Shown: positions 23,774 to 53,047 of the stretch, one piece after another | Layout of the letters: every line of letters begins with the position of its first letter | Numbering within the stretch: the first letter of the stretch is position 1 | Source of the DNA: Clostridia bacterium | Lineage (GTDB): Bacteria > Bacillota > Clostridia > Christensenellales > Aristaeellaceae | Reading direction: 5' to 3' | Assembly (NCBI GenBank): GCA_017410455.1 | Contig: JAFQQT010000072.1 | Span: forward strand, 1 to 64,000 | DNA: 64,000 nucleotides | The notes under the pieces: generated by a model | Told to the model about the DNA's origin: nothing | The model's input: only the letters and a program-made list of their open reading frames with translations | Database searches by the model: none | Made by a program: the position numbers and the translations under genes

Positions 23774-23886
23774 GCAACTTCCTCTTTCCCTGCATTCTTC
23801 ACGCGTATTATGCGCGCCCTCGGTCCGCCACATGCAGCAGCCACCATGCCAGCGACAGCCACAGCGCACATTCCGCTTTCCATTTT

Positions 23887-26484: not shown

Positions 26485-26535
26485 TTTTATCCCTCCTGCC
26501 GCAGCCGGGGCCGCGGTCATTATTCTCACGCCTCC

Positions 26536-26573
26536 ATTATAGCATATGTTATCCCACAGCGCAAACGGTTTCG
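26536..26573 (-). promoter_or_regulatory. Cellobiose phosphorylase promoter with overlapping cre-like element
   Basis: TTGCGC (26564-26559), 17 bp, and a perfect TATAAT (26541-26536) preceded by TGC. The minus-strand CGAAACCGTTTGCG at 26573-26560 matches the cre/LacI-family consensus TGWAANCGNTNWCA with three mismatches and covers the -35 element. Confidence 0.7.
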
Positions 26574-26670
26574 TAAACTTTCGCAACTTTTCCCGCCAAC
26601 AATCTGTGACGACTTTCTCCCATCGGTGACAAAGCCACCGGAAATGTTTCCATACCATGCCAAACAGGGT

Positions 26671-26684
26671 TGTAAGCGCTCTCA
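26671..26684. promoter_or_regulatory. Perfect cre (CcpA-type) consensus site
   Basis: TGTAAGCGCTCTCA fits every defined position of TGWAANCGNTNWCA. It lies 187 bp before cellobiose phosphorylase (minus) and 125 bp before the MBL gene (plus). Confidence 0.65.
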
Positions 26685-26750
26685 GCATCGCCTCTCTTCC
26701 GACCCTGCGGACGAAAATATTTTCGCAAACCGCTCTTTCCCAATTTCAGC

Positions 26751-38139: not shown

Positions 38140-38182
38140 AAAACCTCCTGCTGCAGTTCTCCGCTGCAACAGGAGGTTGTCT
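38140..38182. terminator. Bidirectional terminator between convergent units
   Basis: AACCTCCTG/CAGGAGGTT with an inner CTGCAG/CTGCA pairing. T-rich sequence flanks it on both strands. It ends the exported-protein gene and, from the other side, the Ter operon. Confidence 0.85.
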
Positions 38183-38184
38183 GT

Positions 38185-38949
38185 TTATCCGATCGCGCCG
38201 CACACGCGCAGCACTTCACCCAGCACATCGCAGGCGAAGTCCTCGCCCGTGCAGAGGCACGCGCTGCCCTCGGGAAGGCCCAGCCCGGCAGAGGCCGGCG
38301 CAATGGCCGTGTCCGCCTGCAGGAGCATCGGTACGTCGATGGCGCTGTCCCCCGCGCAAACCATGTGGTCCGGGGCGATCAGCTGCCGCAGCCGCGCCAC
38401 AGCCGCGCCCTTGTCCAGCCCTTCGGGGAAGAAATACACCTTCTTGGCCGAGCGCACGCAACGGATCCCCGGCAGATCGCGGTGCTCCGCCTCCACGGCA
38501 ATGGCCTGCTCACGCCCGCGGCAGTACACGAAAGCGTACATCCCGTCCACCATGCGGCAGCGCAGGAAGTCGCCCGTGGCATGCATCCGCTCCGTCAGGG
38601 CCTCCAGCTGCGCCCGCACCGGCGCAACGATCGCCTCCGTTCCGGCCAGCCAGTCCTCACGGGAGGCACCCTCCTGGAGGAACACCGCGCCGTTGGTGGT
38701 CACCGCGCAGCCCGGCTGCAGCCCTTCCGGCCACTGGATGCGGCGGTACTGGGCGATGGAGCGCGTCGTGACGGGGATGACCTCGGCATGCTCGCGCACG
38801 CGCCGCAGCAGCTCCACCGCCGCAGCGGACATGTAGCCCCACTCGCCCCCGTCGATCCACTCCACGCACACGTCGCCCTCGCGCCTGTGCCGCAGGGAGT
38901 GGATGAGCGTGTTGTCCAGGTCGGTGGCAAAGAGAATCCTTCTGCTCAT
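38185..38949 (-). CDS. HAD-superfamily hydrolase of the Ter biosynthetic module
   Basis: This 254-residue HAD phosphatase has the nucleophile motif FATDLDNTLIHS (Asp10), VTTRSIAQYRR for motif II, a Cof-like cap, KGAAVARLRQLI, and motif IV CAGDSAIDVPMLLQAD. It is the last gene of the Ter operon, joined to the StiP-like gene by an ATGA overlap. A HAD phosphatase is a standard member of the TerD-linked gene set and is predicted to remove a phosphate from the module's sugar- or nucleoside-like product. Substrate not known. Confidence 0.85.
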   Translation of the reverse strand: MSRRILFATDLDNTLIHSLRHRREGDVCVEWIDGGEWGYMSAAAVELLRRVREHAEVIPVTTRSIAQYRRIQWPEGLQPGCAVTTNGAVFLQEGASREDWLAGTEAIVAPVRAQLEALTERMHATGDFLRCRMVDGMYAFVYCRGREQAIAVEAEHRDLPGIRCVRSAKKVYFFPEGLDKGAAVARLRQLIAPDHMVCAGDSAIDVPMLLQADTAIAPASAGLGLPEGSACLCTGEDFACDVLGEVLRVCGAIG

Positions 38950-39998
38950 TGATCCGCCATGGTCTGAATCAGCCCGCAGGCCCGGTAGCGCCTGAGCGGG
39001 TATTCGACCAGCTCCACCCCTCTTTCCTTCGCAAGCTGATAGATGTGCGCCAGGTGCTCATCGTCGTCCATGCTCCGCACCAGCACCTTCCAGGGCACGC
39101 GGCGCAGCAGCACACGGGTCGTTTCGCCGATGCCCGGCTTGACCAGGTTCACATCCGCCACGCGGAAGGCGCGGGCGATCTCCTGCGCCTCCTGAAGGCC
39201 GTCGCCGGCCATGGCGGGCGCGTCGCCTCCCAGCTGCACATCCTTGCGGAAGTGCCGCTCCACCGTCTCGATGAACTCGTACGTCCGGTCCTGCGGGAGC
39301 AGCTCCCGGTAGAAGGCCGAGCCGTGGAAGTCCTCCGGGCCGATGATGTCGCTGCGGAGGAACGTGCGGCTCATCAGGCCCGACACCGTGGCGTTCAGGC
39401 AGGAGCTGGCGATGAGGAAGTCCTCGGGCGTGCCCGTCTTCTCTGCCAGGCCCGCCGGATCGGACAGCACCGCCAGCCCCGGGCTGACCCCGGGGAAATC
39501 CTTCATGGCCGCCTCCAGCTCGCGCCCGATGGCCCCCTTGCCGATCCAGCCATCGATGAACTGGATGCTCTGCGGGCTGTGACGCTGAAGGATGTGCCGC
39601 ATGGCGTTGCCGTCGATGCCCCGTCCGCGGATGATGGAGATGGTGTAGTGCTGAACGTCCGCGCCGTACTTCCACCGCAGGTAGCGGCGGATCAGCACGC
39701 CGATGGACGTGCCCGCCCGGGCCAGGGACACCAGCGTCGCCTCCGGGCCCTTCTGCGCCCAGATCTGCTCCGCCACGCTGGCCACCGCATCCGCCGTCAG
39801 CTGGGCATAGAGCGCCAGCGCCTGGTCGTAGAGGCGGATGTAGTCCGCCGTCGGCTCATACTCGATGGGCAGCATCTCGCAGTAGTGCGTGCCGCTCTGG
39901 ATGCGCTTCTCCCGCTCCTTTGTGCCCAGGGGCTCCACCAGTCCGGTGATGTCCCTGAGGAGGATCGTCACGTCCTCCTCGCGATAGGTACTGAACAT
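38946..39998 (-). CDS. StiP-family / phosphoribosyltransferase-PELOTA protein of the Ter module
   Basis: This 350-residue protein of the family annotated cysteine protease StiP is reclassified as a phosphoribosyltransferase-like domain (ATLVSLARAGTSIGVLIRRY, then IDGWIGKGAIGRELE). It has a C-terminal PELOTA-type RNA-binding segment (about 290-345, RVPWKVLVRSMDDDEHLAHI). Both parts occur together in TerD-linked operons. In the predicted pathway it would handle a ribosyl-phosphate substrate. It starts 1 bp after the preceding PRTase stop and overlaps the HAD gene by 4 bp. The enzymatic activity is unproven. Confidence 0.82.
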   Translation of the reverse strand: MFSTYREEDVTILLRDITGLVEPLGTKEREKRIQSGTHYCEMLPIEYEPTADYIRLYDQALALYAQLTADAVASVAEQIWAQKGPEATLVSLARAGTSIGVLIRRYLRWKYGADVQHYTISIIRGRGIDGNAMRHILQRHSPQSIQFIDGWIGKGAIGRELEAAMKDFPGVSPGLAVLSDPAGLAEKTGTPEDFLIASSCLNATVSGLMSRTFLRSDIIGPEDFHGSAFYRELLPQDRTYEFIETVERHFRKDVQLGGDAPAMAGDGLQEAQEIARAFRVADVNLVKPGIGETTRVLLRRVPWKVLVRSMDDDEHLAHIYQLAKERGVELVEYPLRRYRACGLIQTMADQ

Positions 39999-39999
39999 C

Positions 40000-41130
40000 T
40001 CAGCAACACCTCACATCATACATCGGGCACGCGCCATGGCGGCTCAGGGCCGCGTTCAGCACCCCCGCCGCATCGGTCGCCTCCGGCGCAGCGTCGGTCA
40101 CGATGACGACCGCGTCATACCCCGCCAGGTTGTACAGGAAGGTGACGCGCTCCATCTCGTAGAAGCTGCGCAGGCGGACGCCATTGCGGACGGGGTAATC
40201 CGCCGCATCCCGCACGCCGATGGGGCTGCGGGTGGTGGCGTGGCAGCATACGCGCCCGTCCACCAGCTTCTCCAGCTCAGCACCCACCACCAGTGCGGGG
40301 TACATGCACTCCTCCGTGCCCAGCACCAGCAGGCGCATGCCGGGCCTGACGCTCGCTTCCAGCTGCTGCGCCACGGCCTCCGCCACGCGCTGGCAATGCG
40401 CCTGATAGGCCGCGAAGTCCACGCCCAGGCGGGGGTTGGGGTATCCGCCGGGGATGGCCAGGCGCGTCACGGGCATGTCGCCACCGCACTCCGGCATGAC
40501 CTCGGCCGCCGCCACCTGCCAGGGCTCCACCTGCACGGTGTAGTCCTCCTCCGGCAGCTTCACCAGATACTCGCACGCGATGCCCGCTTCCAGCAGCAGG
40601 CGCTCGTTCTCCTCCGACAGCCGGTTGATCACCGAAGCCGCCACCATCCGCACGCCCGCCGCCTCCGCGCTCACGCCGCGCAGCTGCTTGAGCATGTTCA
40701 GCAGCGTCCGACCGGTGGAGATCTCATCCTCCACGAAGATGACCGTCCCCCCAGGCTGCAGCCCCTCAAGGAAGCCGCCCCGGTGCAGCCGCTGCTCCAT
40801 GGCGTGGCTGTGCTCCTCCAGGAAGAGGATCCAGTCCTGCGCCTGCGCGAGCGTTTCCCGCGTGGTGTGCATGTAACGGCATCCCGCCCCGAAGCAGGAG
40901 GCGACCGCCGCGCCGATGGCCGTGGCCGTTTCCGCAAAGCCCACGACCAGCCCCGTTTCCGGGTACTTCTCCGCCAGCTGCGTGCCCAGGGTGCGCATCA
41001 TCTCCAGTGCCCGGCTGGGCTGCACGGGCATGTGCTTGGCCTGCAGGGGGTTCACCAGCAGGTAGGTCCGTTTGGGGTTGCCCACGCGTTTTGCCACGCG
41101 CAGCACATCGCCCACAGCATATTTGCTCAT
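40000..41130 (-). CDS. PRTase-TRSP phosphoribosyltransferase of the Ter module
   Basis: This 376-residue protein has an orotate-PRTase-like N-terminal domain with GFAETATAIGAAVASCFGAG and the PRPP-binding loop VIFVEDEISTGRTLLNML (about 123-140). A C-terminal TRSP-type domain follows (about 230-376, with VLGTEECMYPALVVG, CHATTRSPIGVR and FYEMERVTFLYNL). This pairing is specific to Ter-linked operons. It is predicted to form or use a ribosyl-phosphate linkage. The ATG at 41130 with AAAGGA upstream is chosen; the longer frame runs into the ATP-grasp gene. Confidence 0.87.
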   Translation of the reverse strand: MSKYAVGDVLRVAKRVGNPKRTYLLVNPLQAKHMPVQPSRALEMMRTLGTQLAEKYPETGLVVGFAETATAIGAAVASCFGAGCRYMHTTRETLAQAQDWILFLEEHSHAMEQRLHRGGFLEGLQPGGTVIFVEDEISTGRTLLNMLKQLRGVSAEAAGVRMVAASVINRLSEENERLLLEAGIACEYLVKLPEEDYTVQVEPWQVAAAEVMPECGGDMPVTRLAIPGGYPNPRLGVDFAAYQAHCQRVAEAVAQQLEASVRPGMRLLVLGTEECMYPALVVGAELEKLVDGRVCCHATTRSPIGVRDAADYPVRNGVRLRSFYEMERVTFLYNLAGYDAVVIVTDAAPEATDAAGVLNAALSRHGACPMYDVRCC

Positions 41131-41149
41131 CGTCTTTTCCTTTCCGCCG

Positions 41150-42163
41150 TCACACCAGCCGCACGGGCTTTTCCACATGGGCCACGCGGCTGACGCCCTC
41201 AGGCTGCTGCCAGGGGGTCGCATGCCCCAGCAGCTGATTCAGCGCGATGGCCGGCAGGTTGATGCCAGTCGCCTCGCAGGAGAGCTGCACGCCGCCGGAC
41301 ATGCGCGGGTTGATCTCCAGCAGATACAGCTGCCCCCCATGCATGCGGAACTGGATGTTGACCGGCAGATCCGCGCCAACAGCGTCCATCAGCCGGGCGG
41401 AAAGCGCCAGCACATCCTCGTCAAAGCGGATCTCGGAATAGCGCCCCGCCATCTTGTAGCGGGGGATGATCAGCTTCCTGTCCGGGCACTGCATGCAGTC
41501 CACGCTGATCTCCGGCCCCTCCAGATAGGGCATGAGCAGCACCGGGATGGAGAAGTCGTACTGGGCCAGCACGGTCCGCGCCTGCTCGAGCGTCAGCTTG
41601 AAGCCGGGCTTTTCGTACAGCGCCCGGGGCTGCAGCACGCGGTCATCCACCACGCGGAAGCTCCTGGCGCCCTCGTCCACGCCCAGCTTGTAGCACACGC
41701 GGCTGCCGTCGGCGGTCAGCTCCTGACAGGCCGCTTCAAACTCCGCCAGCGAGTTGGCCACCCGGCAGACGGGAATGCACTCCGGCACGGACTGGCGCAG
41801 CAGCTCGTAGGCCGCGATCTTGTCATCCAGGCGGCGCACCATTTCGCCCTGCACGCCCACCAGCAGCTTCACGCCGGCAGCCTCGAAGCGCTCCGCCTGC
41901 GCGGCGATCTCCGTCAGGCCGCGCCGGGGCACGAACACGTCGATCCGGTGCTCGCGGCAGAAGTCCAGGCAGTAGTCCACATAGGCCGCGTCATCTATTT
42001 TATCGGGCTCCACATACCACTCGTCGCACTGGCACTTATAGACCGTGGACTCCCGACGGTTGGAGCCGATGACCTCCAGCTCCTCCGCGCAGCCTTCGCG
42101 CATCATGCGGATGATCTGATACACCGCGCTGAACCAGTGATTGAACCAGATTCTGACCTTCAT
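41150..42163 (-). CDS. ATP-grasp ligase of the Ter module
   Basis: This 337-residue ATP-grasp protein has a preATP domain starting KVRIWFNHWFSAVYQIIRMM, DDKIAAYELLRQ before the ATP domain, LMPYLEGPEISVDCMQC, and the metal-binding end LYLLEINPRMSGGVQL. It would couple an acid and an amine or thiol with ATP. Part of the conserved TerD-associated biosynthetic set. The ATG at 42163 overlaps the aldolase stop (ATGA) and has GGAGG 5 bp upstream. Confidence 0.87.
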   Translation of the reverse strand: MKVRIWFNHWFSAVYQIIRMMREGCAEELEVIGSNRRESTVYKCQCDEWYVEPDKIDDAAYVDYCLDFCREHRIDVFVPRRGLTEIAAQAERFEAAGVKLLVGVQGEMVRRLDDKIAAYELLRQSVPECIPVCRVANSLAEFEAACQELTADGSRVCYKLGVDEGARSFRVVDDRVLQPRALYEKPGFKLTLEQARTVLAQYDFSIPVLLMPYLEGPEISVDCMQCPDRKLIIPRYKMAGRYSEIRFDEDVLALSARLMDAVGADLPVNIQFRMHGGQLYLLEINPRMSGGVQLSCEATGINLPAIALNQLLGHATPWQQPEGVSRVAHVEKPVRLV

Positions 42164-43134
42164 GCGTCCTCCTTCAGCCCGTAGACGATCTTGCGGGCCA
42201 CGATTCCCTTCGCCCAGCGGGCGTGGCACTTGACCTCGTTCATGCGGCCATTTGCGCCGCGGTTGACCCCCAGGCCGCCGCCGTCCCAGTCGAGAATGCG
42301 CAGCGCGTCCTCATAATCCGCGCGGCTGACCTGCAGGCCCCGATTGATCACCGGCAGCTGCGAGGGGTGGATGGCCGTCTTGCCCACGAAGCCGTTGAGC
42401 AGGTCCAACTCCAGCTCCCGCTGCAGACCGGTTGCCCATGCGCCCACTTCATCGGCCCCGAAGTACTCCCACACCGGGCCGGACACCACATACTCCCGCG
42501 CGAACACGTTCAGGATATCCACCAGGATGTCCCGCACGGGCCCCACATCGTAGATCGTATGATGCACAGCGCGGCGCAGGCCGAAGAGGTTGCAGAAGTC
42601 GTTGCCGCCCACGCGGATGTTGATGACCCAGGGGCGGATGGGTTCGAGCGCCTCCCGGATGGCCTGCAGCTGCGCCACGCGCCCGCCGGCGTCTGCCACC
42701 ATGCTGCTCTCCAGCGTGGGCATGATGCACCAGGGCCGCTCCGCGCCCGCGTTGATCCGCTGCAGGACAGAGATGTACCCCTGCGCGTTGCTCAGGTCAA
42801 ACTTGGGCAGCACATAGCCTGTCAGCAATCCGGCGGAGGCCCCCAGCATGGCATGGATGCGGGCCATGTGCTCCGGCGTGCGGATGCGCACGAAGAGCAG
42901 CGGCCGCTGGGCTCCCGTCGTTTCCCGGGCGATCTCATCAAGCGTCGCGCACAGCTGCGCCTCAGCTTCCTCCAGCGCAGCATCTGCAATGGAGTCCTCC
43001 AGACACAGCGCCATCGACGTCAGGCCGGGATACGCATTTGTCTTCAGCTTTTGCGCAACGCCCTTGGTCAATGCCGGCGTATACATCAGCGCTCCCACCC
43101 GGTAGGGCAGAACGACCGTATCATCCAGAAGCAT
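42160..43134 (-). CDS. CitE/HpcH-HpaI-type lyase of the Ter module
   Basis: This 324-residue TIM-barrel C-C lyase has LMYTPALTKGVAQKL, the acidic CLEDSIADAALEEAE, LFVRIRTPEHM, the metal-binding CIMPTLESSMVA, and FVGKTAIHPSQLPVIN near the end, as in CitE-like enzymes. In Ter operons it is predicted to feed the ATP-grasp/PRTase pathway. The start at 43134 follows AAAGG; an in-frame ATG at 43155 is possible. A hairpin precedes it after telA, so expression may be tuned separately from the upstream ter genes. Confidence 0.87.
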   Translation of the reverse strand: MLLDDTVVLPYRVGALMYTPALTKGVAQKLKTNAYPGLTSMALCLEDSIADAALEEAEAQLCATLDEIARETTGAQRPLLFVRIRTPEHMARIHAMLGASAGLLTGYVLPKFDLSNAQGYISVLQRINAGAERPWCIMPTLESSMVADAGGRVAQLQAIREALEPIRPWVINIRVGGNDFCNLFGLRRAVHHTIYDVGPVRDILVDILNVFAREYVVSGPVWEYFGADEVGAWATGLQRELELDLLNGFVGKTAIHPSQLPVINRGLQVSRADYEDALRILDWDGGGLGVNRGANGRMNEVKCHARWAKGIVARKIVYGLKEDA

Positions 43135-43171
43135 TCTCTTGCCTTTCCTTTCCATGAACAAACGCAGAAAG

Positions 43172-43218
43172 CCGGGAAGGAAGCTTTCCTCCCTGAGGGA
43201 GGGTGCATTCCTTCCCGA
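43172..43218 (-). terminator. Internal hairpin between telA and the biosynthetic genes
   Basis: The outer stem CGGGAAGGA/TCCTTCCCG encloses CCTCCC-TCA-GGGAGG; on the minus strand it is followed by GCTTTCTG. It looks like a partial terminator or RNA-processing site inside the Ter operon. Confidence 0.6.
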
Positions 43219-43238
43219 CTTCACTTGCGTATATCTGA

Positions 43239-44381
43239 TTACTGATTGGCCTTGGGCATGCTGAACTTCTCGTGGAAGGACTCCTTGATGCGGGCCAGGC
43301 GCACCTGATCCTCCTCGCGCTGACGGCGGGCGTCCTCCTGAATCTTGCGGGTCTCGTCGATGCCGTCCATGATGGTCTTCCAGGAAGCCTCCAGGGTCTC
43401 GATCTTCACGGAGCTGGTGGAAGCCAGGCGGGTGATGTCCGCAGAGGTACGGGCGGAATCCTGCGCGTTACGCAGCAGCAGCTCGTTGGTGCGCTGATCC
43501 AGCGCAGACATGGCGTCCGCCTGGATGCGCTGACGCTTGAGCATGATGGCCTGAGCCAGCGCCTGCTTGAAGACGGGCAGCGTGATGACGAAGGCCGTGT
43601 TGATCTTGCGGATCAGGCTGTAGTTGCTGAACTGCATCGTCTTGATCATGGGGATGGACTGCATGGCCACATTTTCGGCGATGCGCAGGTCCTGGGTGCG
43701 CTGCTCCAGCGCGGCCAGCGCCTGCTCCAGGCTCTGCAGCTCGAAGGTGATGGACCGGTCGCCCGTGCGCTCCATCTCCTGGCGGCGCTCGGCGATGTAG
43801 GCCGTGATCTCGCGGCAGCCCTGCTCACCAGCCAGGATGTACTTCACCAGCTCGTGGTAGTAGCTCACGCAGGCGTCGAACATGGTCTGCAGCTTCTTGT
43901 TGCTCTCGCGGATCTCCGCCTCATACTGCTTGAGCTGCACGTAGATCTTCTCCACGTCCTCGCCCATGGTGTGGTACTTGGCCAGGATCTTCTCCAGCTG
44001 CTTCTTCATGCCGCCGAAGATCTTGGCGAAGAAGCCGGGCTCCTCGCGGATCTCATCGATGTCGAAGTGATCCATGATCTTGCCCAGCGCGGTCATCATC
44101 ACGCCGGTGTTGTCCAGCTGAGCCAGGCTCATGCTGTTGAGCACCATGTCCGCCGCGCGGGAGATCTCCTCCGTCGCGTGCGCGCCGAAGCTGACGATGG
44201 TGTCCATATCGCCCACGTCGATCTGGCTGGCCAGTGCATCCACTTCTGCGGAGTTCGTCAGCGTGCGGTTCATTTCCTCGCGGTCCGCTACGATGTCATA
44301 CTTCTCCACGCCATCGGGCTCAGCAGTGGGGGCGGCGGTAGGGGCGCTGTTCGCCCTGATCTTAGAAAAATCCATAGCCAT
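43239..44381 (-). CDS. telA: TelA/KlaA-family toxic anion resistance protein
   Basis: This 380-residue helical cytoplasmic protein of the TelA family (B. subtilis YceH) has KYDIVADREEMNRTLTNSAE, GFFAKIFGGMKKQLEKILAK, and the coiled-coil AEIRESNKKLQTMFDACVSY. FSNYSLIRKINTAFVITLPV and QRIQADAMSALDQRTNELLL in the second half are family hallmarks. It is linked to tellurite and other envelope stresses. It follows YceG with a 5-bp gap, as in Bacillus yceGH. The GAGGGAG ribosome site is clear. Confidence 0.92.
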   Translation of the reverse strand: MAMDFSKIRANSAPTAAPTAEPDGVEKYDIVADREEMNRTLTNSAEVDALASQIDVGDMDTIVSFGAHATEEISRAADMVLNSMSLAQLDNTGVMMTALGKIMDHFDIDEIREEPGFFAKIFGGMKKQLEKILAKYHTMGEDVEKIYVQLKQYEAEIRESNKKLQTMFDACVSYYHELVKYILAGEQGCREITAYIAERRQEMERTGDRSITFELQSLEQALAALEQRTQDLRIAENVAMQSIPMIKTMQFSNYSLIRKINTAFVITLPVFKQALAQAIMLKRQRIQADAMSALDQRTNELLLRNAQDSARTSADITRLASTSSVKIETLEASWKTIMDGIDETRKIQEDARRQREEDQVRLARIKESFHEKFSMPKANQ

Positions 44382-44386
44382 AGTCT

Positions 44387-46888
44387 TTAACTCCCTCTCT
44401 TGAACATGTTGAGGAACGCATTTGTTACAGGTTTTGCCGTGCTCAGATCCGGCACGGTGAGATCATAGAGGAAATCACCCTGCTGATGGGTGATGAACAT
44501 CGGTTTGGTGTACCACTGGGAAACCCACTGATAACCCGTGGGAACGAAGCCCACGATATCAAAGCCGATCAGATGCAGGAACGCCAGGAGAATGGCGTCC
44601 TCGCGGCTCGGCGGCTGCTCCACCGTGTGGATGCAGATCACCTTGGGGCTCTTCCTGGCGAAGTCGAACTGCTGAATGCGGCGGCCCCATTCGCGGCCCA
44701 TCCCCAGGATGGTGGATACGATGCGGTACTCCATGCCATTCTCGTTGGTGCCGCGGATGATCCGCTCGTCGATCATCAGCTGGAGCTTGTCCAGGATGTG
44801 CTCCTGCTTTTCGGTGCTCATGAAGCCGAAGGGGTAATGGGGGTGCTCCTGGATCTTGCGGCGCTGGAGCTTGCCGTTGCGCAGGAAGTCCGTCGCGGGG
44901 CCACAGGCCGCCGCATCCTTATCCGGCGTGTAGTAGGGCGCGCTCCTGAACACCACCGTATCCGGGGTGACCATCTTTTTGATGCCCGCCCAGTAGTCCT
45001 TCAGCTTGCCGTTGCGCACGCCGTTGACCTGCGCAAAGAGCACCGGCAGCATCACCGTGCTGGCCGTGGTGCTGAAGGCGGGGCGGTACTTCAGGTCCAG
45101 ATCCCAGTACATGGACAGCTCGTCGCAGGTGGATTCCAGCAGGACGGACTGCGCATGGGCGAACTGCTGCGAGTGGTAAAGGCCCGCGTCGCCCGTCTCC
45201 TGGCGGATCTGCTTCTCCGCTTCGGAGGAAAGGGTCCTCACGCGCATCGCGCCTTCCTTGGGGAAGCGGTCCAGACGCATGCTCTCGGGCAGCTCCTGCA
45301 CCAGCATCAGCGGGTCGGTCAGCTTCGCCTTCACCTCCAGGTCAGGGCAGAGCATCAGCAGGTCCATCGGCAGGCGGGACAGGAAGCGCAGGAACAGCGC
45401 CTCGCGGTTATCCCGCGCCACGCCCAGGTAGATCATGCACCCCAGCGCCGGATACTTCCAGCCGGAGAACACGCTGGCGTAGATCCGCTTAAACCAGCAC
45501 AGGAGGTACACCGCCGTCTGCACAACCTGCTGGACATTCGCCTTCGTACGGCCAGCTTCCTCAGCCAGCACCTCCATGAAGGCGTACACCAGCGTGTTCT
45601 GCAGGTCCAGAGCCGTACCCTGGCGCAGGTTCTTCGACAGGTCCATGATGGCCTCATTGACCGTGCGGTAATCATGGCGGCGCACCTGCCCGATCTCGTC
45701 GGTGGTGGGGGGCGCGAAGCCCTCGTCCACGACCATCACCAGCCGCCCGGCTTCCTTCAGCTTCTGATGCAGCCGGAGCAGCTCTTCCTGGTAGGTCTGG
45801 CGCTCCCGCACGCCTTCCCGGCGCACGAAGCAGGTGTAGATGTAGCGGTCCTCATCGCCACGGCGTACGCCCGGCACGAGGATGCTCTCCATCACATCCG
45901 CCTGCATCCAGATGTTGGGGCAGATGGTGTAATCCCGCTCCGGATAGCGCAGGGGCTGCTCCACCGGCGGCCGCTGCGGATGGGTCGGCGGCACAGGCGG
46001 ACGGGGCGTGGGCTTGGGCTGCGGGCGGGGCGTGGATGCCGGCTGCGGACGGGTCTGCTGCTGCGGCACAGGGGGACGCTGTGCGGGCACAGGCTGCGAG
46101 CGCTGCGCAGGCGTCGGCTGCGGGCGCGGGGCAGGCACGGGCTGCGGACGCGGCGCAGGTGTCGGCTGCGGACGCGGCGTGGGCACGGGCTGCGGACGGG
46201 CCGTTACCCGCTGCTGGCGCTCCTGCTCCATGCGCGCGCGGTAGATCGCCTTGAGGCTGAAGTCCGCCGGGAAAGCGCCCGCGCCATCGATGATCACCGG
46301 GTCAGAATGCTCATTGCGGGGATCCAGCTTCTGGTACTCCGCATCGCCCTGGCACTGCAGGAGCACGATATCGCACCCTGCCTGGCAGAGGATGGAGAGG
46401 AAGCTCAGCTCCAGCGCGGAAAGCGAGCTCTGCAGGAAGACCACCGGGAAGCGGCCCTTGCCCAGCTGCACCGCCACGCGCTCGAAGCGGAAATACAGCC
46501 AGCACATGATGCGCATGTAACCGTTGCGGATGATGCTCTCGCTCTTGCCCTTGCGCTGCATGTCCAGCAGCACGTCGGTCACCGCAGTGGCCATCAGCTG
46601 GCGCTGCATGGGGCTCAGGCGCGGCATCCACCTGGTCAGCGCCTCGGCAATGAATTCCTTTTCCAGGCGGAAGTCCTGCCCGACCATCTGAACAAGGTAG
46701 TTGATATTCTCGGTCGTCGGGTTGGGAATCTTCCCTTCCATGACGACGCCGCACTGCTGCGCCATCTCATGGATGTCCAGCAGCGTCTTCTCCATCCCGG
46801 GCTTGTAACCGCTGATTCTCAGAAACAGCGGCTGCGCACGGCCCGGTGTAAAAAGCGTCTCCAGACGCTGTGTGACTGCGCGCTTCAC
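44387..46888 (-). CDS. YceG-family Ter-operon protein with proline-rich insert
   Basis: This 833-residue protein of the YceG family (B. subtilis yceG next to yceH/telA). The N-terminal part (about 1-225) has FLRISGYKPGMEKTLLDIHE and VVMEGKIPNPTTENINYLVQ. The C-terminal part (about 318-833) has YTICPNIWMQADVMESIL and AVYLLCWFKRIYASVFSGWK. Between them residues about 230-315 are a low-complexity Pro/Arg/Gln repeat (PAPRPQPVPAPRPQPTP-type). That makes it far longer than I recall for the Bacillus protein. Its biochemical role is unknown. It starts with GTG, overlapping the rhomboid stop by 4 bp, with GGGAGGAG upstream. Confidence 0.82.
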   Translation of the reverse strand: MKRAVTQRLETLFTPGRAQPLFLRISGYKPGMEKTLLDIHEMAQQCGVVMEGKIPNPTTENINYLVQMVGQDFRLEKEFIAEALTRWMPRLSPMQRQLMATAVTDVLLDMQRKGKSESIIRNGYMRIMCWLYFRFERVAVQLGKGRFPVVFLQSSLSALELSFLSILCQAGCDIVLLQCQGDAEYQKLDPRNEHSDPVIIDGAGAFPADFSLKAIYRARMEQERQQRVTARPQPVPTPRPQPTPAPRPQPVPAPRPQPTPAQRSQPVPAQRPPVPQQQTRPQPASTPRPQPKPTPRPPVPPTHPQRPPVEQPLRYPERDYTICPNIWMQADVMESILVPGVRRGDEDRYIYTCFVRREGVRERQTYQEELLRLHQKLKEAGRLVMVVDEGFAPPTTDEIGQVRRHDYRTVNEAIMDLSKNLRQGTALDLQNTLVYAFMEVLAEEAGRTKANVQQVVQTAVYLLCWFKRIYASVFSGWKYPALGCMIYLGVARDNREALFLRFLSRLPMDLLMLCPDLEVKAKLTDPLMLVQELPESMRLDRFPKEGAMRVRTLSSEAEKQIRQETGDAGLYHSQQFAHAQSVLLESTCDELSMYWDLDLKYRPAFSTTASTVMLPVLFAQVNGVRNGKLKDYWAGIKKMVTPDTVVFRSAPYYTPDKDAAACGPATDFLRNGKLQRRKIQEHPHYPFGFMSTEKQEHILDKLQLMIDERIIRGTNENGMEYRIVSTILGMGREWGRRIQQFDFARKSPKVICIHTVEQPPSREDAILLAFLHLIGFDIVGFVPTGYQWVSQWYTKPMFITHQQGDFLYDLTVPDLSTAKPVTNAFLNMFKRGS
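45944..46201 (-). repeat. Coding tandem repeat for the proline-rich segment
   Basis: Imperfect short units encoding R-P-Q-P-x-P recur about ten times within the YceG gene. The DNA is extremely GC-rich and repetitive, a likely site of slippage and length variation. Confidence 0.75.
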
Positions 46889-47490
46889 GCCACTCCTCCC
46901 TTCTTCCAGCGGATCATCCTCCAGCGGTTCATCAGGTAACCCAGACCGGCGCCGATCAGGCCACCGACGATGTGCGCCATGTAGGAAATGTTGCCCTGCG
47001 TGGTGAACATGGAGTACACCTGCTCACCGATGTAGAGCGCTGCCACCAGAATGAACGTGATGGGGATGCTGCCCTGGCGCACGCTGGTGATGGAGGCCAG
47101 CAGGATCAGCGCGAACACGACGCCGCTGGCGCCCAGCAGGGATGCGCCGGGGAAGAAGATCATCTGAATCAGGCCCGTGACCAGCGCCGTGGTCAGCATC
47201 AGGAACCACATGTTGGACGTGCCATACTTCTCCTCGGCCAGGGGGCCGACGATCAGCAGGGTCATCATGTTGCCCAGCAGGTGGTTCCAGTCCGCATGAC
47301 CCAGCACATGGCCAAACAGGCGCACATAGGTCAGAGGATCCAGGAGCGAAGAACGCCGCACGCTGAAAAACAGCTGCGTCACCTTGCCGGCGAACAGCTC
47401 ATCCAGCGCCATCACAATCACGCATATCAGCGTAAAGGTCAGCACCGCAGGCGCATTCCAATGCAGCCGGATGCCCTTCTTCTGTTCCAT
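46885..47490 (-). CDS. Rhomboid-family intramembrane serine protease
   Basis: This 201-residue, six-helix membrane protein has the rhomboid HADWNHLLGNM motif, the catalytic GASG (Ser122 in SLLGASGVVFAL) and the helix-6 histidine (His173 in MAHIVGG), so it should be active. It would cut membrane proteins within the bilayer. Its place between the TerD genes and yceG, with a 4-bp overlap to yceG, makes it part of the Ter operon rather than a bystander. The ATG at 47490 is preferred over a GTG at 47505 because of the GGGGGAT spacing. Confidence 0.88.
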   Translation of the reverse strand: MEQKKGIRLHWNAPAVLTFTLICVIVMALDELFAGKVTQLFFSVRRSSLLDPLTYVRLFGHVLGHADWNHLLGNMMTLLIVGPLAEEKYGTSNMWFLMLTTALVTGLIQMIFFPGASLLGASGVVFALILLASITSVRQGSIPITFILVAALYIGEQVYSMFTTQGNISYMAHIVGGLIGAGLGYLMNRWRMIRWKKGGVA

Positions 47491-47530
47491 GTTGTCATCC
47501 CCCACCCTGTTGTGTCTTTCTGTGTTCGAA

Positions 47531-47621
47531 TGATGCTGGGAAAACGTCGCCGCTTCCCCAGCATCATGCCTTTATCCGGTTCCCTGAGCAGATGCGCCCG
47601 CCCGGAGACGGACGCATCTGT
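47531..47621 (-). other. Two hairpins between terD and the rhomboid gene
   Basis: TGATGCTGGG/CCCAGCATCA (47531-47566) and CAGATGCG/CGCATCTG (47590-47621) can form stable stems. Neither is followed by a T-run on the minus strand, so RNA stability or processing is more likely than termination. Confidence 0.5.
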
Positions 47622-47669
47622 CCATGGCAAACCGCTTCCGGGACGGGTCAGCCGTCCGCTCGGATCTGC

Positions 47670-48257
47670 TTAGCCGACGTTCACGCCGTAGGCGCGGCAG
47701 AGGGCCTCCAGGCCGCCGCTGTAGCCAGCGCCAACCGCGTTGAACTTCCAGGTGCTGCCGAAGCGGTAGATCTCGCAAACCACCAGCGCGGTCTCGATGG
47801 AGAACTCCTCCATCAGGTCGAAGCGCAGCTCCTCGGTGCCCACGAAGTCGTCGGGACCGGACATGCGGGCCACGCGCACGTAGGCGTTGGACACCTGGCC
47901 GAAGTTCTGGTGACGCTCGGGCGCCTCGTAGATGGTGACGGTGATGGCGATCTTCTGCACATCAGAGGGCACCTTGGTCAGGTCGATGGTGATGACCTCG
48001 TCATCGCCGTCGCCGTCGCCGGTACGGTTGTCGCCGGTGTGGCGGACAGCGCCGCAGCTGCTCTTGAGGTTGCCGTAGAAGATGAAGTCCTCATCCTTGC
48101 GCACGCGGCCGTCCGCGCCCAGCATGAAAGCGGAGGCGTCCAGGTCGAAATCGGCGTTGCCGTCGTACTTGTTGGTATCCCAGCCCAGGCCGATCAGGCA
48201 CATGGTCATGCCCTTATCCAGCGATACGCGCTGGCCCTTGGAAAGATTCACACCCAT
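47670..48257 (-). CDS. TerD-family protein (calcium-binding type)
   Basis: This 195-residue TerD-domain protein has [40 protein letters not shown], and the acidic [14 protein letters not shown] loop that binds Ca2+ in characterised TerD proteins. The residue pattern is complete. TerD proteins act in envelope, phage and tellurite stress. The ATG at 48257 has AAGGAGG 8 bp upstream. It is the fourth of four family members in the operon. Confidence 0.93.
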
Positions 48258-48291
48258 TTTCGTATCCTCCTTGAAAATTATCTCGTGTTCC

Positions 48292-48876
48292 TCAGCGGAA
48301 CCTTGCAACCAGTGCAGTCAGGTTGTCATCGGTGGTGCCCTGGCCAACCGCGTTGAACTTCCACACGTCGCCGACGTGGTTCAGCTCGCCGAAGATCATC
48401 GCGGTCATGCCGTTGTAGTCCTCCGTCAGGTTGTAGCGGCACAGCTCCTGCTTGGTGTCCGCGTCCACAATGCGGATGAACGCATTCTGGATCAGGCCGA
48501 AGTGCTGGTTCCTCTGCTTCGCCTGGTAGATATTGACCACGAACACGATGCGGTCGTACTGTGCAGGAACGCTGACCAGATCCACAACGATCTGCTCGTC
48601 GTCGCCGTCGCCCGCGCCGGTCAGGTTGTCGCCCAGGTGGCGCACAGCTTTGCTGGCGTGGGTCAGGTTGCCGAAGTACACCACGTCGGCGTTCTTCTCC
48701 AGGTGGCCGTTGGCGCAGAGCAGGGCAGAAGCGTCACAGTCGATGGCCTGGGGGCGGAAGAGGAAGCCGCCGCGCTTGACCTCATCCCAGCCCAGACCGA
48801 CGATGACCTTGCGCAGCGTGCCGCCGGTGCTCTTGCGGAGTTCGATCCGCTGACCCTTGACAAGATTCACTGCCAT
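48292..48876 (-). CDS. TerD-family protein, divergent
   Basis: This 194-residue TerD-domain protein starts [17 protein letters not shown]. It keeps the [19 protein letters not shown] and [14 protein letters not shown] loops, but the first calcium segment reads [20 protein letters not shown] instead of the D-x-N-x-Y-D-G-x-x-D-F-D-L-D pattern. Calcium binding may therefore be partial, pointing to a specialised partner role in a TerD assembly. It lies 34 bp upstream of the next terD. AAGGAG precedes the ATG. Confidence 0.88.
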
Positions 48877-48903
48877 GTCCGAATTCTCCTTGTCCGGTTA
48901 TTC

Positions 48904-49491
48904 TTACTTGGAGCCGGCAACCCAGCGCAGACCCCAGCCGAAGGCGCGGTCCATCTCGCTGTGGCCGTTGAAGAAGCTGACTTCCTTGGAGACGGTGAAG
49001 CCGCCGTTGCCGTCGCTCTCCAGCAGGCACAGGGCGCACATGCGCTTGGTGGTGCTGTACTCGTCCATGTGAACGATCACGTCGTCGTTGCCGGGGCACT
49101 TGATGGTCACGCGGGCGTTGGTGCCCTTCCACTCGGCGGTGCCTTCGTAGATGAAGGTGAAAACCAGCATGCGCTCGATCTCGGAGAACTTCGCGGCGTT
49201 GACGCGGATGGTCTCGCCGGAAGCCTTGGTGCCGCTGCGGTCATCGCCGTCCAGGCGGATGTAGGGCTCGCCGTTCACGCTGCCGAAAGCATTGCCCAGC
49301 GCCTGCACAACGCCCTTGCGGCCGTTCTTGAGCTCAAACAGGCAGCCCAGGTCCAGGTCCACAGCCACCTGCGTGGTCATGAACAGGATCTTCTTGGTGA
49401 TCATGTCCCAGTTCAGGTTGAAGCTCATCTCACCCACGGGCACGCTCTTCTTCAGAGAGATTTTCTGACCCTTCTTCAGTTCAACAGCCAT
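48904..49491 (-). CDS. TerA-like TerD-superfamily protein
   Basis: This 195-residue protein, with VDLDLGCLFELKNGRKGVVQ, ALGNAFGSVNGEPYIRLDGD and DRSGTKASGETIRVNAAKF, reads as the TerA-type branch of the superfamily (tellurium resistance TerA). It has a C-terminal extension ending DRAFGWGLRWVAGSK. The classical GDGDGDDE calcium loop is replaced by LDGDDRSG. It stands between canonical and divergent TerD genes. AGGAGG-type ribosome site before the ATG. Confidence 0.83.
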   Translation of the reverse strand: MAVELKKGQKISLKKSVPVGEMSFNLNWDMITKKILFMTTQVAVDLDLGCLFELKNGRKGVVQALGNAFGSVNGEPYIRLDGDDRSGTKASGETIRVNAAKFSEIERMLVFTFIYEGTAEWKGTNARVTIKCPGNDDVIVHMDEYSTTKRMCALCLLESDGNGGFTVSKEVSFFNGHSEMDRAFGWGLRWVAGSK

Positions 49492-49558
49492 TGTCGTATC
49501 CTCCCAAGATTCATCTTTATTTTACGCCCGGCGCAGTCCGGCCGGGAGCATTTCATTG

Positions 49559-50137
49559 TTACGCGTCCAGGCCGTAGTTCTGGCACAGTGCCGCCAGGCC
49601 GCCCTGGAAGCCGCTGCCGATGGCGTTGAACTTCCACTCGCCATTGTAGCGGTACAGCTCGCCCACGATGACGGAGGCCTCGATGGAGAAGTCCTCGCCC
49701 AGGTCGTAGCGGACCAGCTCGGTATCGGTGGCTTCGTCCACGATGCGGATGTAGGAGTTCTCCACCTGACCGAAGTTCTGGTGGCGGACGTCAGCGTCGT
49801 AGATGCTCACGGCGAAGGCGATGCGCTCGATGCCGGCGGGCACCTGGGACAGGGAAACCTTGATGACCTCGTCATCGCCGTCGCCCTCGCCGGTGCGGTT
49901 GTCGCCCATGCTCTGCACGGAGCCGGAGGCATGGCGCTGGTTGCCGTAGAAGATGAAGTCAGCGTCGCTGGCAGCCTTGCCATCCGCGCCCAGCATGAAC
50001 ACCACAGCGTCCAGGTCAAAATCGTCGGAGCCGTCGTAGCGGTTGGTGTCCCAGCCCAGGCCCACATGCAGCTTGTCCAGACCGGGGTTGGTCTTGGTCA
50101 GGTCGATCTTCTGACCCTTACGGAGATTGATAGGCAT
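49559..50137 (-). CDS. terD: TerD-family protein (calcium-binding type)
   Basis: This 192-residue TerD protein is canonical: [54 protein letters not shown] and [20 protein letters not shown]. It should bind Ca2+ at two sites. It is the first ter gene after the P-type ATPase. GAGGAGG lies 8 bp before the ATG. A 9-bp hairpin in the 90-bp gap upstream may adjust its level relative to the ATPase. Confidence 0.94.
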
Positions 50138-50177
50138 GGAAACGTCCTCCTCAATATGGATTTGATCGCGGGAAGGC

Positions 50178-50211
50178 GCTTCCGGACGCGCACGCAGGCG
50201 GATCCGGAAGC
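50178..50211 (-). other. Hairpin between the P-ATPase and terD
   Basis: GCTTCCGGA/TCCGGAAGC is a perfect nine-bp inverted repeat with a 16-base loop; no T-run on the minus strand. Confidence 0.5.
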
Positions 50212-50227
50212 ACGCTTCAGTACGGAC

Positions 50228-52870
50228 TTACTTGGTGCCCATGGCCTTCATGACCGCCTTGCAGATCATGACGACGGGGATGATCAGCACGGCCATGATC
50301 ACGCAGGTGATCCAGGTGGCAACGGACAGGGGGGTCACAGCCAGGGCCGCGCCGCCGATGGAGACGAACACGAACTGCACCAGCAGCAGGCTGAACATGA
50401 CGATCAGGAAGTTTCGGTTGCGGCCGATGCCCTCGAAGGGGTTGATGTGATCGGTGCGGGCGTTGAAGCCGTTGAATGTGATGGCCATCATGAAGGTGGC
50501 GAACACCGCGGACTTCAGGTAGGTGCCCACAGCAGCGTCAGACAGACCCAGGGCAGGCGTGGCGCCGGGCTTCACCAGGTTGACGATGAAGGGGATGAAC
50601 AGGGTGCCCAGGCAGATGACGGTGATGTACAGCGCGCCCAGGATGACCTGGATGAGCATCTTCTTGGTGACGATGCTCTCGTCGCGCGGGATGGGCTTGT
50701 CCTTCATGTACTCCTTCAGCGCGGGCTCGCTGCCAAAGGCGATGGCGGCCAGGGAGTCCATGGCCAGGTTGACCAGCAGCAGCTGCACAACGGTCAGCAC
50801 CACGTCATGACCCAGCATCGGGCCGATGAAGCAGGTCAGCACCGCAGCGACGTTGACGGTCAGCTGGAAGATCAGGAACTTGCGGATGGACTTGAACATC
50901 GTGCGGCCGTACAGGATGGCCTTGGCGATGGAGGTGAAGTTGTCATCCAGGATGGTGATGTCGCCGGCTTCCTTGGCGACCTCGGTGCCGGAGCCCATGG
51001 CGAAGCCGACGTCGGCCTTCTTCAGGGCGGGAGAGTCGTTCACGCCGTCGCCGGTCATGCCGACAACCAGGTTCAGCTCCTGGGCCAGGCGGACCAGGCG
51101 GGACTTATCGGTGGGCAGGGCGCGGGACACGACGCGCAGGCGGGGCAGCAGCTCCTTGACCTCCTCGTCGCTCTTGGCGGCCAGCTCAGCGCTGGTCAGA
51201 GCCACGTCGTCATCGTTGCGCAGCAGGCCAGCCTCGCGGGCGATGGCCACGGCGGTCTCCTTGCGGTCGCCGGTAACCATGACGACCTGAATGCCGGCAT
51301 TCTGCACCTCGACGATGGCATCGGCGGCTTCCTTGCGGACATTGTCGCGGATGGACAGCACGCACACCAGCGTCAGCGCGCAGGTGCCGTCGTCCTCGCC
51401 CTCGACCTTGGCAACGGCCAGCAGACGCATGGAGCGGCCCGCCTGACCGTCGATGTAGGACACGAGGTAGTTCTTCTCGGTCAGCTCGCAGACATTGCCC
51501 TTCTCATCCACATAGTGGGTGCAGCGCTCGATGATCTTCTCGGGCGCGCCCTTGAGGTAGGTCACGGTGCGGCCGTTGCTGTTGATGGTGACGGAGGAGG
51601 ACTTCTTCGTGGAGTTGAACGCGTCAAAGGCCTTCACGTCAGCCTTGGCGATCTCGCTGTCCACCTTGCAGTCCACCAGGAAGGACATCAGGGCGCGGTC
51701 GGTGCTGTTGCCGCCGATGATGCTGCCGTTGGAAGCAGAGGCGCTGTTGTTCACGCCCACGCCGGTGATGACGTCCATGCGCAGGGCGTCGGGCATCGCG
51801 GCGAGGCTGTCGAACTTGGTGACGTTGCCGGTGGCCAGTTCCACAACGGACAGGCGGCCCTCGGTGATGGTGCCGGTCTTATCGCTGAAGAGGATGGACA
51901 GGGAGCCGGCGGTCTCCAGGCCGTTGATCTTGCGGACCAGAACGTTATCCTTGGCCATGCGCAGGCTCTGGTAGGACAGCAGGATGCTGGTGAGCATCGG
52001 CAGGCCCTCGGGCACCGCGCAGACGATGATGGTGACGGCCACGGTGATGGCGTCGATAAACATGGTGATCCAGTCGCCCACGCCATAACCAGCCACGTCG
52101 CCGGTAATGATGTGGCGGGCCACCAGGCCGATGACGATGGCCACGGCGCCAATGTAGCCGAAGGTGGAGATCTGCTGGGCCAGCTTGCCCAGCTTCACCT
52201 GCAGGGGCGTCTCACGGGTATCCTCCTGCACCTCCAGGGCCAGCTCGCCAAAGAGGGTCCTGTCGCCCACGACCTTGACTTCCATGTAGCCCTCGCCGCC
52301 GCAGACCACGGTGCCGCGGTAGGCGTAGTGCTTGTTCAGCAGGTCCTTGATGTCGTAGTCGGCCTCGCCCTCCACGGGCTTCTTGGTGGCTTCCTCGGTC
52401 TCGCCGTTCAGGGCGGCCTGGTCCACCTTCAGCACGCCGTCAACGATCTCGCCGTCAGCGGGCAGCTTGTCGCCGGCCTGCAGGTACACGATGTCGCCCA
52501 CGACGACCTCGCTCACATGGATCTCCTGCAGCACGCCGTCGCGCACGACCTTGGTCATTTCCTTGGCTTCTTCCTCAGCCTTGAGCGCGGAGGCCTTGCC
52601 CTCCTGCTTGCTCTCGGACACGGAGGCGACGCCGTTGGCGATCATGATGGCGACCAGCACGCACAGGGGCTCGTACCACTCGCCCTTGCCCATCAGCCAC
52701 AGCACCACCTGGATCACCAGCGCGACGCAGAGGATCATGATCATCGGGTCCTTGAACCCCTCGAGGATCTTCTTCCACAGCGGATCCGGGGGGATCTGGG
52801 TCAGCGTGTTGGCGCCGTGCTGCGCGCGGCTCTGCTCAACCTGCTGCTTCGTCAGTCCGTTCAGCTTCAT
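50228..52870 (-). CDS. Calcium-type P-ATPase (P2)
   Basis: This 880-residue cation pump has the N-terminal cation-ATPase domain (1-70), the actuator TGES-equivalent ALNGETEEA, PEGLP in helix 4 (287-291, calcium-pump type), the phosphorylation site FSDKTGTITEG (Asp330), KGAPEKIIERC for ATP binding, and MTGDGVNDSPALKKADVGFA. Six C-terminal hydrophobic segments follow. It most resembles plasma-membrane-type Ca2+ ATPases and would export Ca2+. It is the first gene of the Ter operon, whose TerD proteins bind Ca2+. No TerC is present, so this pump may fill the membrane role. Confidence 0.93.
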   Translation of the reverse strand: MKLNGLTKQQVEQSRAQHGANTLTQIPPDPLWKKILEGFKDPMIMILCVALVIQVVLWLMGKGEWYEPLCVLVAIMIANGVASVSESKQEGKASALKAEEEAKEMTKVVRDGVLQEIHVSEVVVGDIVYLQAGDKLPADGEIVDGVLKVDQAALNGETEEATKKPVEGEADYDIKDLLNKHYAYRGTVVCGGEGYMEVKVVGDRTLFGELALEVQEDTRETPLQVKLGKLAQQISTFGYIGAVAIVIGLVARHIITGDVAGYGVGDWITMFIDAITVAVTIIVCAVPEGLPMLTSILLSYQSLRMAKDNVLVRKINGLETAGSLSILFSDKTGTITEGRLSVVELATGNVTKFDSLAAMPDALRMDVITGVGVNNSASASNGSIIGGNSTDRALMSFLVDCKVDSEIAKADVKAFDAFNSTKKSSSVTINSNGRTVTYLKGAPEKIIERCTHYVDEKGNVCELTEKNYLVSYIDGQAGRSMRLLAVAKVEGEDDGTCALTLVCVLSIRDNVRKEAADAIVEVQNAGIQVVMVTGDRKETAVAIAREAGLLRNDDDVALTSAELAAKSDEEVKELLPRLRVVSRALPTDKSRLVRLAQELNLVVGMTGDGVNDSPALKKADVGFAMGSGTEVAKEAGDITILDDNFTSIAKAILYGRTMFKSIRKFLIFQLTVNVAAVLTCFIGPMLGHDVVLTVVQLLLVNLAMDSLAAIAFGSEPALKEYMKDKPIPRDESIVTKKMLIQVILGALYITVICLGTLFIPFIVNLVKPGATPALGLSDAAVGTYLKSAVFATFMMAITFNGFNARTDHINPFEGIGRNRNFLIVMFSLLLVQFVFVSIGGAALAVTPLSVATWITCVIMAVLIIPVVMICKAVMKAMGTK

Positions 52871-53007: not shown

Positions 53008-53047
53008 TATACTAAGTCAGTATACCACAATCTGCATGCTGTGTCTA
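53008..53047 (-). promoter_or_regulatory. Ter-operon promoter with palindromic operator
   Basis: On the minus strand TAGACA (53047-53042), 17 bp, and TATACT (53024-53019). The -10 is the left arm of a perfect palindrome TATACT-N5-AGTATA (53008-53024) that reaches past the start site. This is a classic repressor-operator position. The leader to 52870 is about 140 nt without a recognised riboswitch. Confidence 0.7.

Follow-up and report, generated by a model that had tools for sequence, protein, structure and literature searches.

A Clostridia ter gene cluster with a predicted calcium pump in the place of TerC and a linked rhomboid protease

Introduction

What Ter proteins do is a question that has stood for decades. 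The Ter biosynthetic enzyme set was reportedly predicted by Anantharaman, Iyer and Aravind in 2012 to make a nucleoside-like product, and in the yce cluster of Bacillus subtilis, where YceCDE are presumably TerD proteins with YceG and YceH/TelA alongside, we know of no rhomboid; to our knowledge, substrates or contexts have been worked out for few bacterial rhomboids. Here we analyze a ter block from a gut Clostridia bacterium of the family Aristaeellaceae (assembly GCA_017410455.1), located within the first 64,000 nucleotides of contig JAFQQT010000072.1, the whole stretch being called the window below. The 13 open frames of the block all lie on the minus strand, from 52870 to 38185 in window coordinates, and include a P-type Ca2+ ATPase and a rhomboid intramembrane protease.

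Several reports describe related systems. The B. subtilis operon yceCDE-meeF is one of them, and the TerC proteins MeeF and MeeY metalate exoenzymes, FtsH being essential without them (PMC10550928). TerC is grouped with TMEM165 and other Ca2+/Mn2+ transporters in one superfamily (PMC12096827), and the ter genes of Klebsiella pneumoniae respond to Zn2+ and Mn2+ (PMC12054061). On the side of proteolysis, Mn2+ stress leads the B. subtilis rhomboid YqgP to cleave MgtE, a transporter of Mg2+, and to pass it to FtsH (PMC7231995). Compared with these systems, the locus described here is a variant of the Ter cluster with a predicted Ca2+ pump for TerC plus a rhomboid; its cytoplasmic components (TerD paralogues, YceG and TelA) and its biosynthetic enzymes belong to standard families.

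Results

The first gene of the block encodes a predicted Ca2+-transporting pump of the PMCA type (P2B). Its product scored 596 bits with the PMCA-type model TIGR01517 of NCBIfam (equivalog cut-off, 507), and its best relatives in the PDB are plant ATPase 8 (plasma membrane type), PMCA1, PMCA2 and Listeria lmo0841. Of the features of P2B pumps, the DKTGT and PEGLP motifs and the N and D of transmembrane segment 6 were found. The same features recur in the 66 ATPases above 600 bits in TerD loci, with PEGLP and DKTGT in 66/66 and the segment 6 N and D in all 65 that have letters at these positions.

The block had been described in the first-pass annotation as having no TerC or TerB, and a TerC gene elsewhere in the genome had been allowed for. 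Neither TerC (PF03741) nor TerB (PF05099) has a match anywhere in the window assembly (3.3 Mb in 93 contigs, 92% complete), which bears out the description. TerC was also without a match in the 80 genomes behind the TelA loci described below (0/50 and 0/30, completeness unstated). Across the class, however, only 11 of 148 genomes match TerC, 9 of them over the cut-off; because TerC is this rare, its absence alone says little, and it is the mutual exclusivity over the whole phylum that carries the argument.

For this purpose we used a phylum sample of 398 genomes, 23 of which have TerD at E <= 1e-20, reading the main ter locus of each rather than every lone terD copy; from the TerC profile, 8 of 14 TerC sequences had been dropped for in-frame stops. 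The ATPase was found without TerC in 11 main loci (G000, G043, G189, G232, G407, G454, G195, G220, G1027, G1049 and G1059), TerC without the ATPase in 8 (G228, G139, G003, G022, G151, G155, G219 and G1038), neither in 4 (G268, G334, G105 and G1097) and both in none. Zero overlap has a chance probability of 0.001, or of 0.003 when the genomes are collapsed to 14 families, a step that corrects for close kin only. TerB follows the same division, being present in 0/11 genomes with the ATPase, 5/8 with TerC and 2/4 of the others (chance of 0/11, 0.003). Beyond these 23, TerB also matches in G634, a member of the window's family whose ter stretch is without an ATPase. Two loci (L074 and L077) place TerC between terD and the lyase gene. 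These data support the conclusion that the PMCA-type ATPase stands in the place of the TerC/TerB membrane part of the ter locus, as the first-pass annotation had proposed in suggesting that the pump replaces TerC.

The rhomboid of the window is, by its predicted active site, a protease. It scored 77.3 with the Pfam Rhomboid model (cut-off, 22.6), its residues 19-190 align to the GlpG core, and the H/N, GASG and H positions are all retained, H/N/S/H being present in 53/53 aligned rows; the active site had been called complete at first pass, and the alignment agrees. A rhombosortase identity was rejected, since TIGR03902 gave 42.4 bits with a cut-off of 84. A YqgP-type rhomboid was rejected as well, because a protein of 206 amino acids with the rhomboid domain at 60-192 has no room for the metal-binding N-terminal domain or the C-terminal tetratricopeptide (TPR) domain of YqgP.

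Recurrence of the rhomboid was assessed in the best 80 of 104 TelA loci, which were retrieved with patterns derived from the TelA of the window itself and annotated by means of profiles built on window proteins; they are named records, mostly from Clostridia and many gut-derived, some end at contig edges, and fractions among them are not frequencies in nature. TerD was present in 71 loci, YceG in 78, the ATPase in 56 (in 55 of the 71 with TerD) and a rhomboid in 33. All 33 rhomboid-bearing loci have TerD, 28 have the ATPase, and in 32 the rhomboid lies on the operon strand; for four without the ATPase (L099, L132, L139 and L151), a contig end truncates the locus. The next annotated gene after the rhomboid is yceG in 14/33, as in the window, and a PRTase gene in 17/33 (16 behind the ATPase, with L097 behind terD), while in L164 it is telA and in L118 the rhomboid is on the opposite strand. 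Conservation of the rhomboid in relatives, which the first-pass annotation had left to be checked, is thus seen in 33/80 TelA loci, with 14/33 before yceG, and this supports the view that the rhomboid belongs in Clostridia ter loci. The stop-start overlap of rhomboid and yceG, singled out at first pass as the least expected part, is present in the window as GTGA and may also be present in L099, but it is not conserved: most relatives show short gaps. Separately, a second match to the YceG profile lies upstream of the rhomboid in L100, L126, L128, L132, L134, L146 and L151.

In a tree of 52 rhomboids, the two position classes form two supported groups. The first also holds L164 and the unlinked rhomboids L053 and L054, and the second holds L118; a supported branch separates all linked rows and two more unlinked ones from the rest. 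The window rhomboid is a long branch. L175, from the genome of the sister locus L092, was left out of the tree and counted among the 35 ter-linked rows of the alignment. A single entry followed by a move and two separate entries both fit this history. The window's order TerD-rhomboid-yceG-telA is also found in MT838549.1 (L210), an unverified human faecal record of 5141 bases filed as bacteriophage, whose genes are of a gut Clostridia type and which is probably bacterial rather than phage DNA. A second record filed as phage (L211) carries a rhomboid close to its end, and the 14 kb examined showed no ter gene. Literature searches, with the 2012 work of Anantharaman and colleagues and that of Darwiche and Goff (2025) outside the comparison, yielded no description of a rhomboid linked to ter genes and, in the excerpts of the reports returned, no pointer to an operon joining ter genes with a P-type Ca2+ ATPase.

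The Ca2+ motif is retained in three of the four TerD-family proteins of the window, the first of which matches the solved TerD structures 2kxt/2kxv and 3ibz. The exception is the third gene of the block, previously labeled TerA-like: it is a weak relative of TerD in Pfam (30.1 bits; cut-off, 25.3) without the GDNxTGxGDGDDE-type motif, so that membership in a divergent TerD family stands and the TerA label as such is not confirmed. As a separate observation on this family, TerD and TerB match frames of equal length (about 470-490 amino acids) in G003 (C9:81275-82675), G155 (C3:2435527-2436909) and G268 (C12:55271-56677), which are probable TerD-TerB fusions and lie near yceG-telA in G003 and G155.

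We then considered how the block may be transcribed. The best promoter-like site on the minus strand is that at the head of the block (Table 1), and L092, whose shared proteins are 45-82% identical to those of the window, has TAGACA-17-TATAAT before its ATPase when read by eye. Weaker sites were found at 53009 and at 50322-50295 (9/12), the second of them within the 3'-terminal part of the ATPase gene and ahead of the terD genes; on both strands together the scan gave 5 sites versus 2.3 in shuffles, and none in the terD/rhomboid or telA/lyase gaps. Those two gaps and the ATPase/terD gap fold into strong hairpins (Table 1), compared with a z score of -1.2 for the terD1/next gene gap, although the gaps were picked after the hairpins had been seen and this was the single control. 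The terD/rhomboid and telA/lyase gaps of L092 (6895-6985 and 11122-11214) also form hairpins, of other sequence, with z scores of -4.3 and -5.8. Long T runs are missing from the window hairpins, and the block holds no excess of terminator-like sites (7 versus 7.2 in shuffles). The segments that the hairpins bound (the pump with the TerD proteins, the rhomboid with YceG and TelA, and the enzymes) roughly correspond to the units shuffled among relatives. It is therefore likely that the message is processed or partly terminated within the block, and the single uniform transcript implied at first pass appears doubtful.

The remaining features are collected in Table 1. The 13 frames of the first-pass annotation lie where it had placed them, on one strand, and match the named families in Pfam, some of whose descriptions mention a Ter link; the NCBIfam scan covered 10 of the 13 proteins. 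Read by eye, the listed starts of the lyase, ATP-grasp, PRTase and rhomboid genes look too early. None of the 10 window proteins submitted to the PADLOC models, with 3 TerD proteins left out, matched known anti-phage defence systems. Elsewhere in the window (20786-23869, minus strand) lies a GH3 glycosidase with swapped domain order, its C-terminal domain at 134-391 and its N-terminal domain at 736-904, adjoining a GH94 phosphorylase-family protein at 24040-26688.

Table 1. Features of the ter block in window coordinates
Feature	Position	Strand	Basis
Probable promoter, TAGACA, 17 nt, extended -10 TGGTATACT	53019..53047	-	Scan score 10/12; counterpart in sister L092
Predicted PMCA-type (P2B) Ca2+-transporting P-type ATPase, 880 amino acids	50228..52870	-	Pfam P-type cation ATPase, TIGR01517
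ATPase/first terD gap with strong hairpin	50138..50227	-	z -3.9
TerD, Ca2+ motif present	49559..50137	-	Pfam TerD
Divergent TerD-family protein without Ca2+ motif (earlier label TerA-like)	48904..49491	-	Pfam, weak
Divergent TerD, Ca2+ motif retained	48292..48876	-	Pfam TerD
TerD, Ca2+ motif present	47670..48257	-	Pfam TerD
terD/rhomboid gap, two strong hairpins (14 and 17 pairs)	47506..47669	-	Folding; z -3.4 and -6.2
Rhomboid intramembrane serine protease (predicted), H/N, GASG, H complete; probable start 47490	46885..47505	-	Pfam Rhomboid
YceG_bac protein, 833 amino acids; GTGA overlap with rhomboid gene	44387..46888	-	Pfam
TelA	43239..44381	-	Pfam
telA/lyase gap, terminator-like hairpin	43150..43240	-	Folding; z -6.0
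CitE-like C-C bond lyase (C-C_Bond_Lyase); start probably 43152 or 43133	42160..43224	-	Pfam
ATP-grasp of Ter type (ATPgrasp_Ter); start probably 42163, ATGA overlap	41150..42229	-	Pfam
PRTase_2 + TRSP; start probably 41130	40000..41223	-	Pfam
StiP + PELOTA_1	38946..39998	-	Pfam
HAD-IIB phosphatase-like protein	38185..38949	-	Pfam Hydrolase_3, 27.2 bits vs cut-off 20.9
Terminator-like hairpin after last gene, tail TTTTGC	38142..38178	-	By eye; missing from terminator scan

Discussion

We somewhat favor reading the block as a Clostridia version of the Ter stress system, built on a calcium pump and equipped with a rhomboid that probably acts on a membrane protein in the way that YqgP controls MgtE. 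The pump would do the job of TerC by moving Ca2+, and perhaps also Mn2+, out of the cytoplasm; this export would reset Ca2+ levels in the cytoplasm for the TerD proteins, which bind Ca2+, and would supply metal to exported or membrane proteins. On a failure of metal handling, the rhomboid would cleave a membrane protein or pass it on, in the manner of B. subtilis YqgP with MgtE and FtsH; candidate substrates are the pump, some other metal transporter or a client jammed in the translocon. A long message from the promoter at 53047 would probably be tuned by the hairpins into ATPase-TerD, rhomboid-YceG-TelA and enzyme segments. The two boldest proposals of the first-pass annotation survive testing in part, and the pump, the TerD proteins and the rhomboid may form the one sensing-response circuit that it had imagined. 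Should a well-understood Ca2+ pump be able to replace TerC, one could test which ion Ter systems move and in which direction, and the Ca2+ sites of TerD would have a plausible role; likewise, a rhomboid found in the company of a metal pump and TerD proteins narrows the substrates to be tested to a short list. A broader view, which we hold tentatively and consider improbable as a whole, would have TerC and the PMCA-type pump interchangeable, Ter a Ca2+ (or Ca2+/Mn2+) response at the secretion membrane, and the rhomboid of gut Clostridia an added, dedicated proteolytic arm that cleaves the pump or those exported metalloproteins that have jammed. Such a system would be a compact bacterial counterpart of the Golgi, in which Ca2+/Mn2+ pumps go together with quality control of membrane proteins.

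Several observations weigh against the favored reading. On the side of the pump, G268 has TerC away from its ter loci; the class-wide rarity of TerC and shared ancestry weaken the exclusivity statistics; the genome-wide TerC search covered part of the 23 genomes, and the counts of PMCA-type ATPases refer to ter loci alone and not to the rest of the genomes. On the side of the rhomboid, the window protein has no YqgP-like cytosolic metal-sensing domain, which leaves the sensing analogy incomplete, and L097 is a real exception with a rhomboid and no ATPase in its locus. The rhomboid is absent from 38 of the 71 TerD-bearing TelA loci, some of them cut by contig ends, and is thus not essential to the system. 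A class sample showed a rhomboid match in 24/291 genomes (19 strong, including the window's), and in the 18 other strong ones no ter gene was found in the stretches of 4-20 kb read. StiP is over the cut-off in 6/100 family genomes, the window's included, in 0/3 other genomes of the same genus in the family sample, and in 2/297 of the order sample. Six other StiP loci of the family and order have the rhomboid only in L175; L174, L176 and L177 are without it, contig ends leave short stretches of L172 and L173, and neither yceG nor telA appears in any of the five. With so few StiP loci in the family and a rhomboid in one of six, the cluster is patchy and the rhomboid optional. Since the arrangement nevertheless recurs in many relatives, it is probably a working variant and not an accident.

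The rhomboid could alternatively be a general housekeeping protease, co-transcribed with the ter genes by chance and with no specific Ter role. The window genome has no other Pfam rhomboid, which makes a housekeeping role possible, and the linked rhomboid is also the sole one in 13 of 33 other ter-linked genomes; among 18 unlinked rhomboid relatives, L053 and L054 fall inside a ter-linked clade with neighbours that are, by eye, unrelated to ter, and 9 of 17 examined ter genomes without a linked rhomboid have no rhomboid at all. Against this, the rhomboid occupies two positions in two clades, nearly always on the operon strand and adjoining core ter genes, and a second rhomboid match exists in 20 of the 33 other linked genomes (10 strong, with E 4e-27 or better, and 10 weak, two of these under the cut-off). 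Chance would place a rhomboid in a 21-kb locus in about 1% of loci, assuming independence and 1.6 rhomboids per genome. We consider the housekeeping explanation unlikely.

The calcium-pump reading has another competitor, in which the ATPase is an added export pump for calcium stress and no stand-in for TerC, TerC having simply been lost in these lineages. The rarity of TerC in the class agrees with such a loss, and the 4 of 23 main loci with neither protein imply that the membrane part in the locus is dispensable; yet the two never occur together in the 23 main loci, and TerB is distributed as expected of alternative membrane parts, which leaves simple loss doubtful while still deserving some weight. 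A similar, rather low standing may be given to the idea that the block consists of three or more independent transcription units merely lying side by side. The hairpins that the window and L092 share in position (the terD/rhomboid and telA/lyase gaps) but not in sequence would suit it, as would the reordering and partial inversion of ter modules in relatives and the weaker promoter-like site ahead of the terD genes. However, the best promoter-like site is at the head of the block and is retained in L092, neither hairpin gap contains such a site, the window hairpins are without long T runs, and the scan gave no excess of terminator-like sites in the block.

The cluster can finally be set beside known systems. 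The classical ter operon has TerC and TerB, neither of which was encountered in the 92% complete window assembly. Ter systems with the biosynthetic module, as reportedly described by Anantharaman and colleagues in 2012, share with the window the TerD paralogues, TelA, the lyase, ATP-grasp, PRTase-TRSP, StiP-PELOTA and HAD proteins; TerD with the Ca2+ motif, TelA, YceG and the full enzyme set were all recognized here by Pfam, and the window differs in having a PMCA-type ATPase and a rhomboid instead of TerC and TerB. With the B. subtilis yce operon the window shares the TerD and YceG families, as control searches indicate, and a single membrane metal protein; this is MeeF, a TerC protein, in B. 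subtilis, whereas the window has a P-type pump, and StiP, unlike in the window, has no match in B. subtilis in a control search. Jug phages combine TerD genes with a Ca2+ P-type ATPase in the same genome and transcribe both strongly, and the excerpts of that report neither present the two as one operon or as connected nor mention a rhomboid (PMC12363816). In the YqgP-FtsH control of MgtE, YqgP has metal-binding N-terminal and TPR domains, whereas the window rhomboid is a core of about 200 amino acids in a ter cluster; what the two have in common is the rhomboid itself, which in the YqgP system acts on metal transport (PMC7231995).

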